Part shown: positions 21,948-27,656 of the stretch, one piece after another | How the letters are laid out: each line of letters begins with the position of its first letter | How positions within the stretch are numbered: the stretch's first letter is position 1 | Assembly: GCA_020354555.1 (NCBI GenBank) | Contig: CP070648.1 | Coordinates: forward strand, 3,924,988 to 3,963,839 | DNA length: 38,852 nucleotides | Reading direction: 5' to 3' | Source: Armatimonadota bacterium | GTDB taxonomy: Bacteria; Armatimonadota; Hebobacteria; GCA-020354555; CP070648 | The notes under the pieces: model-generated | Database searches by the model: none | What the model was told of the DNA's origin: nothing | Seen by the model: only the letters and a program-made list of their open reading frames with translations | Made by a program: the position numbers and the translations under genes

Positions 21948-22041
21948 TGGCGGAGAGAGTGGGATTCGAACCCACGAGGGAGCTTGTGGCCCCCTACGCG
22001 ATTTCCAGTCGCGCCCCTTCGGCCAACTCGGGCATCTCTCC
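21948..22041 (-). tRNA. tRNA-Ser(GGA)
   Basis: Minus-strand gene with acceptor GGAGAGA (22041-22035) pairing TCTCTCC (21958-21952), discriminator G and an encoded CCA (21950-21948). The anticodon loop is ACTGGAAAT with anticodon GGA, reading UCC and UCU serine codons. A long variable arm (GGGGGCCACAAGCTCCC) is typical of tRNA-Ser, and the T-arm is GTGGGTTCGAATCCCAC. It is directly followed by the GIY-YIG gene. Confidence 0.96.
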
Positions 22042-22094: not shown

Positions 22095-22124
22095 AGTATA
22101 TCACCGCCCCACGCCCCCGGTCAA
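22095..22124 (-). promoter_or_regulatory. Promoter of tRNA-Ser
   Basis: Minus strand: -35 TTGACC (22124-22119), 18-base spacer, -10 TATACT (22100-22095); transcription would begin near 22088, leaving about 47 leader bases before the tRNA. A second TATACT at 22062-22057 lacks a matching -35. Confidence 0.6.
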
Positions 22125-22249
22125 GGAAACCCGCCGCGGCGCGGCACGGCGGGCTTCTCCATGCCGACGGTCGCGTTACGCCTTACCCCGCCAAGCGGCG
22201 CGCGCAACGGGCATGCCGATATTTCCTACAAAATTTGTCCAGAAACTCC

Positions 22250-22277
22250 TTGACACGCGGTTAAAATGGACTAAAAT
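22250..22277 (+). promoter_or_regulatory. Promoter of the rrf2-cooS operon
   Basis: TTGACA (22250-22255, perfect -35), 16-base spacer, TAAAAT (22272-22277, 5/6). Transcription would start near 22284, leaving a leader of about 135 bases before the Rrf2 ATG. An 11-bp palindrome ACAAA-A-TTTGT (22228-22238) lies just upstream of the -35. Confidence 0.7.
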
Positions 22278-22281
22278 AGTC
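22269..22281. promoter_or_regulatory. Type-1 IscR-like operator over the -10
   Basis: GACTAAAATAGTC is a perfect inverted repeat (GACTA, AAA, TAGTC) and fits every position of the core GACTRWWWYAGTC of the E. coli IscR type-1 consensus; the outer arms match about half. It overlaps the -10, so the Rrf2 protein encoded next probably represses its own operon through it. Confidence 0.65.
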
Positions 22282-22418
22282 AATAATACGTACGTCGAGG
22301 TTTGTGAAGCTGGGAGCGAACCGTGGGCTTCGGCGGCAAGGTGTAGGGTCTCGTGCGGACAAGCGTGCGGCGTCAGCGGCCCTCCGCCAATGCCGAGCAG
22401 TCCAGAGGAGCACTTGTG

Positions 22419-22880
22419 ATGGATATCATTCGGCGCAAGACGGACTACGGCTTGCGCGCGCTGGTGGCCCTGGCGACGGCCGATGGCCCGATGCGCGCGG
22501 AAGAGTTGGCAGAACGCGAGGATGTGCCGATCGCCTTCCTGCACAAGGCGCTGAGGGACCTCGCGAACGCAGGCATTGTCGAGGGGCAGCGCGGCCCGGC
22601 CGGGGGCTACACGTTGGCGCGGCGCGCGGACAAGATCACGATGTTGGAGGCGGTGGAGGCGATGCAGGGGCCGGTTGCGGTGAGCCGCTGCTTGCTCGGC
22701 GATGACGCCTGCTCGCGGCAGAGGACGTGCGGGCTGCGTCGGGCGTGGCAAGAAGTGCAGCGCAACATCGCCTCTTTCCTGAGCGGGATCACGGTGGATG
22801 ATCTCGTGCAGGCTCTGGGTCGGACGGCGCGTCCGCGCAGGCGAAAGAGGGTCGCCGCTGCGGCCCGCGCGGCCGCATGA
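22419..22880 (+). CDS. Rrf2-family Fe-S transcriptional regulator (IscR/NsrR-like)
   Basis: 153 residues from ATG 22419, eight bases after AGAGGAG. Residues 1-75 form the winged helix-turn-helix of Rrf2 proteins: DYGLRALVALA, VPIAFLHKALRDLANAGIV (recognition helix), then the wing RGPAGGYTLAR. Three cysteines, C91, C98 and C104, sit in the loop that holds a [2Fe-2S] or [4Fe-4S] cluster in IscR and NsrR. IscR's fourth ligand His107 is absent (Arg107), while Asp9 is placed like the Asp8 ligand of Streptomyces NsrR, so an NO- or oxygen-sensing cluster is plausible. It heads the operon with the ferredoxin and CODH-family genes. The basic Ala/Arg tail (about 135-153) is unusual. Confidence 0.9.
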   Translation: MDIIRRKTDYGLRALVALATADGPMRAEELAEREDVPIAFLHKALRDLANAGIVEGQRGPAGGYTLARRADKITMLEAVEAMQGPVAVSRCLLGDDACSRQRTCGLRRAWQEVQRNIASFLSGITVDDLVQALGRTARPRRRKRVAAAARAAA

Positions 22881-22913
22881 CGGCGCACACATCAGACGAG
22901 GAGGAGGGACGAA

Positions 22914-23690
22914 ATGGCTGGCAGAGGCGCGAGACAGATCATCCGTATAGATGAGGAGAAGTGCAACGGTTGCGGCCAATGCGTCACGGCCTGCGCGGAG
23001 GGCGCGCTGGCCATCGTTGACGGCAAGGCGCGCGTGGTCAATGACAGTTTCTGCGACGGCCTCGGCGCGTGCATTGGGGAATGCCCGCAGGGCGCGCTGA
23101 GCATCGAGATGCGCGTGGCCGATGAATTCGACGCGGCGGCGGTGGAGCACCATCAGGCACGGATCCGCCAGGCCGAGGCGGAGCACCCGGCGCCGTCACC
23201 GGAGCCGCTCGCCTGCGGCTGCCCGGGGTCTATGGCCGAAACCATTCAAACGCACGAGTCCGCTCGGCCGGGCGCTTGTGCCGCGCCCACATCGCAGCTC
23301 GGCAACTGGCCGGTGCAGATCCATCTGCTGCCGATCGAGGCGCCATTCTACCGGGGAGCGCATCTCCTGCTCGCCGCCGACTGCGTGCCGTTCGCCTATG
23401 CCGGCTTCCACCAGGAGTTGCTGAGCGGCCGCACGCTTGCGGTCGGCTGCCCCAAGCTCGACGACCCGCTGTTCTACGTCGAGAAGCTGGGAAACATCCT
23501 GCGCAGCAACGACATTCGCAGTCTGACCGTGGCCCACATGGAGGTGCCGTGCTGCTTCGGGCTGGAGCGCGTCGCCGCGCAAGCTGTCGAGAGATCGGGC
23601 AAGGATATTCCCGTCGAGGTCGTAATTGTCGGGCGCGACGGCACGATTAAGTCGGCGATTGACGAGGACGCTACCTGCCCGCACGGATAG
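22914..23690 (+). CDS. Dicluster 4Fe-4S ferredoxin-like protein with extra Cys domain
   Basis: 258 residues from ATG 22914 behind GAGGAGGG. Residues 10-65 are a two-cluster ferredoxin: CNGCGQCVTAC (17-27) with a Cys further on, and the variant CDGLGACIGECP (47-58), where the second motif has Gly-Leu in place of the usual xxC spacing. After a linker with CGCPGS comes a globular domain (SQLGNWPVQIHLLPIEAPFY, then LLLAADCVPFAYAGFH, VGCPKLDDPLFYVEKL and MEVPCCFGL) with four or five more cysteines. I recall this architecture near hybrid-cluster protein (hcp) genes in anaerobes, but that is memory, not a search. It probably donates electrons to the CODH-family protein encoded downstream. Confidence 0.85.
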   Translation: MAGRGARQIIRIDEEKCNGCGQCVTACAEGALAIVDGKARVVNDSFCDGLGACIGECPQGALSIEMRVADEFDAAAVEHHQARIRQAEAEHPAPSPEPLACGCPGSMAETIQTHESARPGACAAPTSQLGNWPVQIHLLPIEAPFYRGAHLLLAADCVPFAYAGFHQELLSGRTLAVGCPKLDDPLFYVEKLGNILRSNDIRSLTVAHMEVPCCFGLERVAAQAVERSGKDIPVEVVIVGRDGTIKSAIDEDATCPHG

Positions 23691-23770
23691 GAATCACATT
23701 TCAAACGTATCACCGCCGCCCCGGTCGTGCCGGTATCCCGGGGCGACGAGAACGTCACGAGGCAAATGGG

Positions 23771-24040
23771 ATGTTTGACAAGTGTCCTGGCGCCAAGCAG
23801 TTCACACAGCCGACGCCTGAGTTCTACCCGTGCCCGTGGTGCAGCGCGGAGGTTGAGATCTGGACCGACGAGATGGAGGCGAAGTGCCCGGAGTGCTCGC
23901 GCGTCGTCACTCGCGACCGCATCCAGGGGTGTATTGATCACTGCGAGATGGCCCGCGAGTGCTTGGGCGCGGAGCGCTACGAGCGCCTAGTGCGTCAGCG
24001 CCGCGAGGCCGGCGCCGCCGATCAGATAAGCGGCCAATAG
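23771..24040 (+). CDS. Small Cys-rich zinc-ribbon-like protein
   Basis: 89 residues from ATG 23771. Two CxxC pairs, CPWC (21-24) and CPEC (39-42), form a probable zinc ribbon, and a third block CIDHCEMARECLG (54-66) adds three cysteines; the rest is charged. I do not recognise a named family. It lies between the ferredoxin-like gene (80 bases upstream) and the CODH-family gene (69 bases downstream), so it is likely part of the operon. A role in metal-cluster supply or in regulation is a guess. Confidence 0.7.
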   Translation: MFDKCPGAKQFTQPTPEFYPCPWCSAEVEIWTDEMEAKCPECSRVVTRDRIQGCIDHCEMARECLGAERYERLVRQRREAGAADQISGQ

Positions 24041-24109
24041 CCGCGCGTTATCACATGAGTTGACCGCCCCGCGCCAAAGCGGGCGGCATAGGCAAACGGG
24101 AGGTGCCCG

Positions 24110-25987
24110 ATGGCTGACATGCCGTCAAGCGCGCACGAAAGCGTGCGCACCATGCTGGAGAAGATCGAATCTGACGGGATGACCAATGTCTTTCAGCGGT
24201 TCGCCGCACAGGGGCCGCGCTGTACCTTCTGCGAGCAAGGGCTGCGCTGTTCTCTGTGCTCGAACGGCCCGTGCCGCATCAAGAAGGGCGCCGAACGCGG
24301 CGTGTGCGGCATCGAGGGCAACGCCATGGCCATGCGCGACATGCTCATGCGCAACGTCCTCGGCACCTCGACCTACACGTATCACGCGCAGGAGGTTGCG
24401 GATACGCTGCGCGCCACCGCCGAGGGCAAGACGCCTTTCGCAATCAGCGATGAGAGCAAGCTGCGGATGATGGCCGACAGGCTGCACCTGGCCGGGGCGA
24501 CCGATGCCAAGTCTTTGGCCATCGCCGTGGCCGACGCGATGACGGACGAGATCAACACCCATCGCCACACGCCCTCGCGCATGGTGGAGGCCTTCGCCCC
24601 CGAAAAACGCAAGCAGGTCTGGCGCGATCTCGGCATCTTCCCCGGCGGCCCGCTCAACGAGATGATGCGCTGCACGTCGAGCTGCCTGACCAACGTCGAC
24701 GCGGACTATAAGTCCCTCGCGCTCAAGGCGCTGCGCCTCGGAATCGCCTGCATCTACGGCGCTCAGGTCCCGCTCGAAATGGGCCAGGATGCTCTGTTCG
24801 GCACCGCCCAACCGCACGACATGGAGGTTGACCTCGGCGTCCTCGACCCCGCGTACGTCAACATTGTGCCCAGTGGACACGAGCCGTTCGTCGGCGCCGC
24901 TCTCATCAAGGCCGCGCACGGCGCCGAGGTGCAGGCGAAGGCCCGCGCCGCGGGAGCCAAGGGCCTGCGCGTCATCGGCTCCATCGAGACCGGACAGGAG
25001 CTGATTCAGCGTTTCCCGCAGGACGAGGTGTTCGCGGGCTTCACCGGCAACTGGATCATGGAAGAGGCGGTGCTCGCGACCGGCGCAGTGGACGTCTTCG
25101 CGAGCGACATGAACTGCACGGTGCCGACGCTGGGCGCATACGGGCGACGCTACAATGCCACCGTCGTGCCCGTTTCCGAACTGGTGCGTATCGAGGACAT
25201 TGACCACACGCTCGATTACCGCCCGGACAAGGCGGCCGCCATCGCGGATCAACTCATAGATCTCGCCGTCGAAAACTTCAAGCGTCGCAAGGGTCAGGAA
25301 GCCTTTGTCCCGCCGCAGCGCAGGAAGGCGATGGTCGGTTTCTCCGCGGAGTCAATCCTTGGCGCGCTCGGCGGCAGCCTCGATCCCCTGCTCGACGTCA
25401 TCAAGGACGGCAAGATCAAGGGGGTCGTCGCCCTGGTGAGTTGCACGACGCTGAAGAACGGTGACCACGATGCGATGACTCTGGAAGTGGCGCGCCAACT
25501 CATCGCGCGAGACATCCTCGTCCTCGGCATGGGGTGCGGCGTCGCCGCGCTCCAAGTCGGCGGGCTCGCCGGCCTGGAGGCTCAGTCGCTGGCGGGCAGT
25601 GGGCTGCGTGCCGTGTGCGAAAGCCTGGGCGTGCCGCCCGTGCTGAGCTTCGGCACCTGCACCGACACCGGCCGCTGCGCCCTGCTCGTGACCGCCATCG
25701 CGGACGCGCTCGGGGTGGACACGCCTCAGCTTCCGGTCGCCGTTACGGCACCGGAATACATGGAGCAGAAGGCGACGATTGACGCCGTGTTCGCCATCGC
25801 CTTCGGCCTCTACACCCATGTCTCGCCGATCCCGCCGGTCACCGGCGCCGAGGGCGTGGTGCAGCTCCTGACGCAGGACGTCGAGGGGCTCCTGGGGGGG
25901 AAGCTGGCAGTCGCCGACGAGCCGGGTCAGGCCGTGGACGGCATCGAGCAACACATACTGTCAAAGCGCAAGGCGCTGGGCATCTAA
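24110..25987 (+). CDS. Anaerobic CO dehydrogenase (CooS) family protein with Hcp-like cluster ligands
   Basis: 625 residues, start ATG 24110 behind GGGAGG. N-terminal Fe-S motifs: CTFC (38-41) with C47, C50, C55 and C66 in CSLCSNGPCRI...GVCG, the B-cluster pattern; the D-cluster motif is CX2C, as in Desulfovibrio CODH with a [2Fe-2S] D-cluster, not CX7C. Active-site ligands compared with CODH II: His257 (SGHEPF), Cys336 (DMNC), Cys445 (VSC), Cys476 (GMGC) and Cys517 (GTC) are present, but the Cys295 position is Glu293 (GSIETGQE instead of GxCCTGNE). The His-rich stretch after the B-cluster has only His92. His, Glu and four Cys are the ligand types of the hybrid cluster in Hcp and recall C. 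hydrogenoformans CODH-V. CO oxidation is therefore doubtful; reduction of hydroxylamine or NO-like substrates is possible. Confidence 0.88.
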   Translation: MADMPSSAHESVRTMLEKIESDGMTNVFQRFAAQGPRCTFCEQGLRCSLCSNGPCRIKKGAERGVCGIEGNAMAMRDMLMRNVLGTSTYTYHAQEVADTLRATAEGKTPFAISDESKLRMMADRLHLAGATDAKSLAIAVADAMTDEINTHRHTPSRMVEAFAPEKRKQVWRDLGIFPGGPLNEMMRCTSSCLTNVDADYKSLALKALRLGIACIYGAQVPLEMGQDALFGTAQPHDMEVDLGVLDPAYVNIVPSGHEPFVGAALIKAAHGAEVQAKARAAGAKGLRVIGSIETGQELIQRFPQDEVFAGFTGNWIMEEAVLATGAVDVFASDMNCTVPTLGAYGRRYNATVVPVSELVRIEDIDHTLDYRPDKAAAIADQLIDLAVENFKRRKGQEAFVPPQRRKAMVGFSAESILGALGGSLDPLLDVIKDGKIKGVVALVSCTTLKNGDHDAMTLEVARQLIARDILVLGMGCGVAALQVGGLAGLEAQSLAGSGLRAVCESLGVPPVLSFGTCTDTGRCALLVTAIADALGVDTPQLPVAVTAPEYMEQKATIDAVFAIAFGLYTHVSPIPPVTGAEGVVQLLTQDVEGLLGGKLAVADEPGQAVDGIEQHILSKRKALGI

Positions 25988-25988
25988 T

Positions 25989-26033
25989 CGAGGTGGGCAG
26001 GGCCCCAGACACCGGGGCCCTGTGCTCGCCTCG
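25989..26033 (+). terminator. Strong stem-loop directly after the CODH-family gene
   Basis: CAGGGCCCC (25998-26006) pairs with GGGGCCCTG (26014-26022), and outer arms CGAGG/CCTCG (25989-25993/26029-26033) extend the stem. It begins 2 bases after the TAA stop. A run of six A's, not T's, follows on this strand, so it is not a textbook intrinsic terminator, but its position suggests a 3' end or a stabilising hairpin. Confidence 0.5.
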
Positions 26034-26327
26034 AAAAAAGTGCCGTCGATGTCTCGCCGACCGCACATCGGGGGTCTTGCAGGATACGGGCTTCCGTAAT
26101 ACCGTTCACATGGGCGCGGAGAGTGCCATCCAAAGAGCGGGCCGACATGTGGATGAGAGGCCCGCCGCGCAGATAGCGCCTCATAGAAGGCGCACACAAA
26201 CAGTCGCTTCCACTTTGCACCCCGCGCCCACCTCCGTTTGTGCCCCGCGGCGCGGTCGTCTTCCTTCGCCATTTGGCTATCCGCGTCGTTTACGTCCCCA
26301 TGGGCGGTGCGATATACTGAAAGCGCA
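26034..26327. other. Intergenic region with no gene seen
   Basis: About 290 bases between the cooS hairpin and mtaB. No open frame here resembles a protein and I see no repeat. Only the mtaB promoter (26289-26318) at the right end is recognisable. Confidence 0.6.
26289..26318 (+). promoter_or_regulatory. Promoter of mtaB, possibly giving a leaderless mRNA
   Basis: TTTACG (26289-26294, 4/6), 18-base spacer, TATACT (26313-26318, 5/6). The ATG chosen for mtaB is at 26328, so transcription from about 26325 would leave almost no leader. Confidence 0.5.
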
Positions 26328-27656
26328 ATGGTGCGCCAGGATCGCGATCCCAGGCAGCCGGCCGGGAATTCAGCCGTCCGCATCGCCACCCTGGGATGCA
26401 AGGCCAACCAGGCCGACTCAGACGCCTTGGCGGCAGAGCTGATCCGGCGCGGCTACACGATCGCTGCGGTGGACGAACCTGCCGCCGTCTGCGTCATCAA
26501 CACCTGCACCGTCACGCATGTCGCGGATGCGAAGGCGCGCAAGTTGATCCGCCGCCTGGGGCGCGACAACCCGCGCGCCGCAATCGTGGTGACCGGGTGC
26601 TACGCCGAGCGCGCCGCCCAGGAACTGGCGGCAATCCCCGGCGTATCGCGCGTGGTGCCCAATGCTGCCAGGGATAGCCTCGCGCGCGTCATCGAGGAGG
26701 TAGCGGGGGCGCCCGCGCGGCCCGAACCGAGCCTGCCGACCGGGCCGCGCCCCGCGCGCCCAGGGTCCGTGCGCGCTTTCGTGAAGGCGCAAGACGGGTG
26801 TGATCACCACTGCTCGTATTGCATTGTGCCTGCTGCGCGCGGGCCGATGCGTTCGCGATCGGTGGCGGAAGTGGTGAGCGAGATTCGCCGCGTGGTCGAA
26901 GCGGGCGCCCGCGAGGTGGTCGTCTCCGGCATTCGGTTGGGCGCGTATGGCGAGGAGCCTCAGGGCCGGGGACTCGCACGACTTCTGCATGCCGCCTGCG
27001 ACATCCCCGCCGCGAGACTCCGCCTCAGCTCGATTGAGCCGTGGGATGTCGGGGATGAACTCGCCGCGGAAATAGCGGAACATCCGCTCCTCTGTCCGCA
27101 TCTCCACCTGCCGTTGCAGTCCGGCGACGACGAGGTGCTGCGCGCCATGCGGCGGCCATACACCATCGCCGACTATCGCGCCCTCGTGCACAGTCTGCGG
27201 CAGCGGAATCCCGACATCGCCGTCACCACCGACATCATGGTCGGTTTCCCCGGCGAGTCCGAGCGCGCTTTCGCCCACACGTGCAGCGCGGTCGAGGAGA
27301 TCGGGTTCGCCCGCGCGCACGTCTTTCGCTACTCGGGGCGCCCGGGGACTACGGCCGCGGCAATGCCCGACCAGGTACCCGACGAGATCAAGGCCGCCCG
27401 CGCTCACGTGCTGTCTCGGCTGGCCCAGGAGTCGGCATGCGCGTTCGCCCGGCGATTCATGGGCCGAACCGTGCCGGTGCTTTTCGAGGAATGTGCCAAC
27501 GGCGTGTGCAGCGGCCTGACGGATACGTATCTGACCGCAAAGACTTCCGGCAGACCCTCTCTCGTGGGACAAGTCGCAGGAGTGGAGGTGCGCGCCGTGG
27601 AAAGCAACGGCATCGCGGGCGAGCTTGCGCGCCGGCAACGTGCCGAACGAGGATAA
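26328..27656 (+). CDS. mtaB: tRNA (t6A37)-methylthiotransferase
   Basis: 442 residues from ATG 26328; no clear Shine-Dalgarno is seen. The N-terminal UPF0004 domain begins VRIATLGCKANQADSD, which is MtaB-like (TLGCKVNQ) rather than MiaB, and holds the cluster Cys24, Cys60 (NTCTVT) and Cys91 (VTGCYAE). The radical-SAM CxxxCxxC is C158-C162-C165 (GCDHHCSYC), then IVPAARGPMRSR and RLSSIEPWDV. HLHLPLQSGDDEVLRAMRRPYT and TTDIMVGFPGE are conserved catalytic-domain blocks. The C-terminal TRAM region is short. It thiomethylates t6A37 to ms2t6A in tRNAs reading ANN codons. No operon partner is obvious. Confidence 0.92.
   Translation: MVRQDRDPRQPAGNSAVRIATLGCKANQADSDALAAELIRRGYTIAAVDEPAAVCVINTCTVTHVADAKARKLIRRLGRDNPRAAIVVTGCYAERAAQELAAIPGVSRVVPNAARDSLARVIEEVAGAPARPEPSLPTGPRPARPGSVRAFVKAQDGCDHHCSYCIVPAARGPMRSRSVAEVVSEIRRVVEAGAREVVVSGIRLGAYGEEPQGRGLARLLHAACDIPAARLRLSSIEPWDVGDELAAEIAEHPLLCPHLHLPLQSGDDEVLRAMRRPYTIADYRALVHSLRQRNPDIAVTTDIMVGFPGESERAFAHTCSAVEEIGFARAHVFRYSGRPGTTAAAMPDQVPDEIKAARAHVLSRLAQESACAFARRFMGRTVPVLFEECANGVCSGLTDTYLTAKTSGRPSLVGQVAGVEVRAVESNGIAGELARRQRAERG

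Follow-up and report, generated by a model that had tools for sequence, protein, structure and literature searches.

A CooS-V-type carbon monoxide dehydrogenase homologue in the operon position of Hcp in an Armatimonadota bacterium

The DNA analysed here, called the window throughout, is a 38,852-nucleotide stretch of the Armatimonadota bacterium contig CP070648.1 (GCA_020354555.1, positions 3,924,988-3,963,839). It harbours an operon on the plus strand in which an Rrf2-type regulator is followed by a FrdX-like protein, a small zinc-ribbon protein and, in last position, a 625-residue protein of the carbon monoxide dehydrogenase (CODH) family (Table 1). The reading frame of the latter is intact, with an ATG start, a TAA stop and a purine-rich ribosome-binding site. 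By its sequence the product is a member of the known CooS-V type (clade D, structural group D-1), and other genomes of the phylum carry the same operon layout with the hybrid cluster protein Hcp in its place.

Table 1. Features of the Rrf2-FrdX-zinc ribbon-CODH operon, in window coordinates
Feature	Position	Strand	Basis
CooS-V-type (clade D, structural group D-1) CODH-family protein, 625 residues	24110..25987	+	profile, alignment, tree, structure match
Cys38-X2-Cys41, type III D-cluster motif	24221..24232	+	sequence, alignment
Tyr89 at the acid-base His position of Ni-CODHs	24374..24376	+	alignment
His257, conserved cluster ligand	24878..24880	+	alignment
Glu293 replacing C-cluster Cys295 (CODH-II numbering)	24986..24988	+	alignment, tree
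Cys336 cluster ligand (CooS-V Cys338)	25115..25117	+	alignment
Cys445 cluster ligand (CooS-V Cys449)	25442..25444	+	alignment
Cys476 cluster ligand (CooS-V Cys480)	25535..25537	+	alignment
Cys517, counterpart of the persulfide-forming Cys521 of CooS-V	25658..25660	+	alignment
Glu552-Gln553-Lys554, EQK motif common to Hcp	25763..25771	+	alignment, tree
Sigma-70-like promoter TTGACA-N16-TAAAAT	22250..22277	+	11 of 12 matches; 0.5 expected in shuffles
Predicted palindromic operator TGGACTAAAATAGTCAA, overlapping the -10 box	22267..22283	+	1 mismatch from family consensus TGGANTANNNTANTCCA
Rrf2-family regulator, 153 residues, three Cys (CX6CX5C)	22419..22880	+	PF02082 (6.9e-35); TIGR00738 above cut-off
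FrdX-like protein, 258 residues: dicluster ferredoxin N-terminus and conserved Cys/His C-terminal domain	22914..23690	+	homologs beside hcp
Small zinc-ribbon-like protein, 89 residues (CPG..CPxC..CPxC..C..C..CLG), conserved small family	23771..24040	+	contexts of relatives
Strong hairpin directly after the stop codon	25988..26034	+	-40.9 kcal/mol, z -4.7; no T run on the plus strand

The 625-residue protein scores 781.8 bits with the curated model of the CODH catalytic subunit (TIGR01702, cut-off 478) and does not pass the Hcp model TIGR01703 (44.7 bits vs a cut-off of 360.8). Its best match among solved structures is CooS-V of Carboxydothermus hydrogenoformans (PDB 7b7q, 1.2e-229), with which it shares 56% pairwise identity and every ligand discussed below. 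This is further supported by the AlphaFold model (mean predicted local distance difference test score 90.9), to which the CooS-V structures are closest (TM 0.98, root mean square deviation 1.1 Å), followed by Ni-CODHs at 1.6-1.8 Å. In a FastTree phylogeny of 74 sequences with Glu at the Cys295 position and 20 others, all Glu bearers form one group that is explained by a single Cys-to-Glu change (support 100), and the window protein clusters with CooS-V inside the well-supported D-1 clade. The combination of Glu, a type III D-cluster, Tyr at the acid-base His position and a retained Lys preceded two residues earlier by Glu is how structural group D-1 has been defined in the literature (PMC6344411); since this signature is conserved within a single family, chance is not an issue. 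A first-pass annotation made from the sequence alone had described CODH-V as an enzyme with an Fe/S/O cluster that lacks Ni and does not oxidise CO, which is correct (PMC9311411), and had suspected a protein of that type behind a misleading CODH label. Both the tree, in which the protein does not fall into a Ni-CODH clade, and the modelled fold agree with that suspicion. The operon context, which bears most directly on function, lay outside that annotation.

The same annotation had placed Glu293 at the position of a C-cluster cysteine. The alignment of GSIETGQE with GICCTANE of the Ni-CODHs confirms this, and Glu is found here in 80/80 relatives, which were taken from genome_contigs by ranked similarity to the window protein and to CooS-V and are not a random sample. 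No Cys occurs at a shifted position near residue 293, neither in the window protein nor in the 80 relatives, which together with the conserved Glu excludes a sequencing error or a displaced ligand. With Glu293 at the Cys295 position, the five-Cys one-His C-cluster set of a functional Ni-CODH is incomplete. His257 and Cys336/445/476/517, rightly compared with the Hcp ligands in the first-pass annotation, align throughout and are invariant in all 80 relatives. Overlooked there was Glu552, which corresponds to the cluster ligands Glu556 of CooS-V and Glu494 of Hcp (PMC9311411); Glu552-x-Lys554 is retained in every relative, while Ni-CODHs carry other residues at this position, mostly Ser (SEK). 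The hybrid-cluster ligand set of His, Glu, four Cys and Glu is therefore complete (residue equivalence from PMC6344411 and PMC9311411).

Cys38-X2-Cys41-X5-Cys47, whose CX2C part had been recognized before, fits the type III D-cluster motif C-X2-C-X5-C (PMC6344411). The further suggestion that the His-rich proton path is mostly lost holds for the catalytic acid-base His, which is Tyr in 80/80 relatives and His in the Ni-CODHs, but the loss is incomplete, as His92 is kept in all relatives. The Ni-CODHs of clades E and F, including CODH-II, the Thermococcus CODH and a second CODH in the genome of the window, share the scaffold, the B-cluster and ~31-35% identity with the window protein. In contrast to it, they have retained Cys as a ligand as well as the catalytic His, and they carry SEK or a related motif; same-phylum Ni-CODHs likewise have Cys at the 293 position, the catalytic His and SEK. 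Just outside D-1 in the tree lies a protein of Clostridiaceae bacterium BRH_c20a (L202; 44% identity) whose D-cluster is of type II and which combines the EQK motif with Asp in place of Cys295. Judged from these residues it is possibly an intermediate toward the hybrid-cluster type, and it is absent from the published structural groups as tabulated.

The 258-residue protein encoded upstream is named FrdX-like for the position of its homologs beside hcp, which matches the arrangement in Desulfovibrio and C. difficile. Full-length homologs adjoin canonical hcp genes in the same phylum, and another is encoded on a Roseburia plasmid as part of an hcp-Crp/Fnr-frdX cluster. Its C-terminal domain has no PDB match at E <= 0.001; the weak resemblance to beta-carbonic anhydrases (Z at most 6.5) is level with that to unrelated folds. 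A short FrdX variant (open reading frames of ~130-190 residues), in which a Cys-rich end (CxxC...WVCVRCLPxLIHG) stands in place of the C-terminal domain, adjoins D-1 CODHs at five loci (L061, L071, L090, L092, L096).

Relatives of the 89-residue zinc-ribbon protein are found between frdX and hcp in three genomes (G067, G186, G089), beside D-1 CODHs (L067, L213) and after frdX in G001, which belongs to the same family as the genome of the window. Curated Pfam and NCBIfam models do not match this small protein family above cut-off. For the regulator only the Rrf2 superfamily model is passed. The NsrR and IscR models match below their cut-offs (NF008240 for NsrR, 44.5 bits vs 182), so that neither identity can be assigned. 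As its three Cys resemble those of other Fe-S Rrf2 proteins, it is a probable Fe-S sensor repressor. The promoter listed in Table 1 is the only promoter-like site within 22100-26300. A search with the TGGANTANNNTANTCCA palindrome returned 2 matches at <=2 mismatches vs 0.26 expected, and exact copies occur at the same place upstream of rrf2 in most same-phylum D-1 rrf2-frdX operons and in G001. Visual inspection alone points to another palindrome, roughly GGTATANTANTACC, in the Hcp operons.

To relate these genes across genomes we surveyed 251 genomes of the same phylum, counting FrdX when directly upstream on the same strand and, for Hcp matches, within 2.4 kb. FrdX directly precedes 13/16 D-1 CODHs and 14/70 Hcp matches, where it is always upstream, but none of the 35 Ni-CODHs. 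The difference between D-1 and Ni-CODHs corresponds to p = 1.2e-9 with genomes treated as independent, and the absence from Ni-CODHs excludes that FrdX is an ordinary ferredoxin near any CODH. Among 82 loci, comprising the 80 D-1 genes, the window and one same-phylum genome, the FrdX family is by far the commonest neighbour (23/82, open reading frames overlapping the CODH gene aside). Two genomes (G067 and G186; L152, L158) have rrf2-frdX-zinc ribbon-hcp, i.e. the exact order of the window with a canonical Hcp in last position (775 bits with TIGR01703 in G067). The same layout appears as frdX-zinc ribbon-hcp in G089 (L153), whose available stretch ends before rrf2. Shorter versions are rrf2-frdX-hcp (G109, G129) and rrf2-frdX-D-1 CODH (L101-L106, L112). 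In G001 (L117) the rrf2-frdX-zinc ribbon operon contains neither Hcp nor D-1 CODH, and neither was found elsewhere in that genome, which suggests a possible function for FrdX apart from both enzymes.

None of the 16 same-phylum genomes with a D-1 gene has Hcp (p = 0.008, genomes treated as independent), and 11/16 have no other CODH. Across 68 D-1 genomes of all groups, Hcp is present in 0/28 with a FrdX-adjacent D-1 CODH vs 9/40 of the others (p = 0.008). The genome of the window, a single contig that is 97.3% complete, holds no canonical Hcp, the sole match being the D-1 gene itself. Its second CODH (G000:C1:4276494-4278365, L002) has the full C-cluster ligands with the GICCTANE and SEK signatures and lies ~14 kb from a CdhD gene (G000:C1:4292588-4293550, L098), which suggests a real pathway of CODH and acetyl-CoA synthase. 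In plasmid records only distant CODHs matched the D-1 enzyme.

In the tree, the window D-1 protein has its nearest relatives among Asgard-archaeal proteins (64% identity, support 97), with which a second tree places it in a small group, and not among the D-1 proteins found elsewhere in its phylum. For the window FrdX, the nearest relative is that of G001 (support 99), followed by those from genomes of the same class (support 90). An enzyme close to Asgard proteins next to a FrdX native to the bacterial class indicates that the enzyme slot was probably filled from outside. Thus, judging from these trees, a resident operon probably received its enzyme from elsewhere, and Hcp was likely lost before the enzyme arrived. 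On the D-1 tree FrdX adjacency requires 8 changes, 7 of them forced by well-supported branches, and recurs across several phyla, so that the pairing has arisen anew or been lost several times.

Taken together, we consider it probable that the window protein is a hybrid-cluster reductase without Ni that receives its electrons from FrdX, is under the control of the Rrf2 regulator and serves in Hcp's place in defence against nitrosative or redox stress. For this protein we infer the cluster type, the electron donor and flow, the inducer and the substrate as follows. An Fe/S/O hybrid cluster, ligated by His257, Glu293, the four Cys and Glu552, would probably take the place of the Ni-Fe C-cluster. 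Nitric oxide (NO) or another oxidant would damage the Fe-S cluster of the regulator and thereby relieve repression at the palindrome that overlaps the -10 box. Low-potential electrons would then pass from FrdX via the B cluster to the hybrid cluster. There a small nitrogen-oxide or oxidant may be reduced, and the D-1 enzyme would fill the place held by Hcp in otherwise identical operons. With Hcp it shares the ligand set, the EQK motif, the FrdX partner and the operon slot, but it belongs to a separate branch of the superfamily and has the CODH-type D-cluster Cys at the interface. FrdX is a known hcp partner, with hcp-hcpR-frdX arrangements in Desulfovibrio and Clostridioides difficile (PMC1274295, PMC12915319). 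These resemble the window operon in joining a FrdX homolog, a hybrid-cluster enzyme and a stress regulator, while the window has a D-1 CODH as the enzyme, a Rrf2-type instead of a Crp/Fnr-type regulator and the extra zinc-ribbon gene. A wider proposition, to which we give an even chance, is that D-1 CODHs repeatedly took Hcp's place. Having arisen independently on the CODH scaffold, a hybrid-cluster site would then have entered pre-existing Rrf2-FrdX stress operons with FrdX as the common donor to both kinds of enzyme, and many environmental anaerobes now counted as CO oxidisers would use it against nitrosative or redox stress.

The biochemistry of CooS-V is the main reference for this proposal. 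CooS-V contains a [4Fe-3S-nO] hybrid cluster without Ni, which rearranges reversibly with the redox state, Glu556 being the ligand that moves, and it catalyses neither CO oxidation nor CO2 reduction (PMC9311411). The window enzyme resembles it in the Cys295-to-Glu exchange, the type III D-cluster, the Tyr, the retained Lys, the EQK motif and the fold, and differs in its Rrf2-FrdX-zinc ribbon operon and in a genome devoid of a canonical Hcp match, as C. hydrogenoformans also encodes Hcp. Several points weigh against a role like that of Hcp. NO reduction by CooS-V was not detected, its hydroxylamine reduction is very slow (kcat 0.13 per s), its potentials lie ~300 mV below those of E. coli Hcp, and its authors propose a function other than Hcp's (PMC9311411). 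The Clostridia branch that contains CooS-V has no adjacent FrdX, and many D-1 genes appear solitary. The association counts moreover ignore kinship, and most of the genomes are metagenome-assembled, many of them incomplete. The lack of NO reduction is tempered by the use of methyl viologen, an artificial donor, in the hydroxylamine assay (PMC9311411) and by the very absence of FrdX next to the genes of the CooS-V branch.

The possibility that the enzyme reduces another low-potential substrate, or answers general oxidative stress (oxygen, peroxide) instead of nitrogen oxides, is a less likely alternative. The CooS-V channel opens only in the reduced state, which points to a reductase (PMC9311411). 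In ANME-2 archaea (L038, L041, L053, L060, L064, L069) the D-1 gene instead belongs to a conserved cluster whose other products are a ferredoxin-thioredoxin reductase-rubredoxin protein, a flavodiiron protein and a rubrerythrin-like protein. By its gene content this neighbourhood is another stress-type setting. However, in bacteria FrdX as well as Hcp is linked with nitrosative stress (PMC12915319, PMC1274295), and the slot of the D-1 enzyme in the Rrf2 operon is that of Hcp. We regard it as improbable that the protein chiefly senses redox state or a gas and catalyses little; such a regulatory role was put forward for clade D in a 2026 genomic-context survey (PMC13056359). The reversible redox rearrangement of the CooS-V cluster and its very slow turnover (PMC9311411) would suit a sensor, but the operon has its own three-Cys Rrf2 regulator with a matching predicted operator and its own ferredoxin, which suits a regulated enzyme better than a sensor, and the ligand residues are all strictly conserved.

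CO oxidation by the window protein is very unlikely. The score above the TIGR01702 cut-off is in its favour, and older genetics in M. acetivorans is cited in PMC6344411 as having hinted at an involvement of D-1 genes with CO. Yet CooS-V is without Ni or CO activity, and the CODH-II variant C295E is Ni-deficient and unable to oxidise CO, its hydroxylamine reductase activity being slightly raised (PMC9311411). In addition, the full-ligand Ni-CODH near CdhD is available in this genome for a CO role, and most same-phylum D-1 genomes lack any other CODH. A working Ni-CODH despite Glu293 is thus hardly tenable. A Ni-free hybrid-cluster reductase in the place of Hcp remains the reading that we favour.

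The enzyme type is already known, whereas the exchange of Hcp for a CODH appears to be new. In the literature searched, which included few subscription journals, we found no report of the recurrent FrdX pairing, of the swap within one operon layout or of the operator, nor of a clade D CODH accompanied by FrdX or an Rrf2 regulator. The 2026 survey set clade D aside and called its role unproven and without a clear neighbour pattern (PMC13056359). CooS-V-type proteins are common in the genomes of anaerobes, score above the cut-off of the curated CODH model and serve as evidence of CO metabolism; it is advisable to examine the CODH calls of many environmental genomes for Glu in place of Cys295. 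The finding that D-1 genes in this phylum mostly occur without another CODH is contrary to a published claim that genes of the CooS-V group are present only alongside other CODHs. The operon swap makes the role of CooS-V testable, as it offers a concrete role, a likely electron donor that was not used in the published assays, a regulator and an operator.

The hairpin behind the CODH gene possibly marks the end of the operon. Just upstream of the operon lies a tRNA-Ser (GGA) gene on the minus strand (21948-22041), and the plus-strand reading frames listed at this place are probably spurious. Downstream follow a gene for an MtaB-type tRNA methylthiotransferase (26238-27656) and, from 28077, genes for NADH-quinone oxidoreductase subunits.
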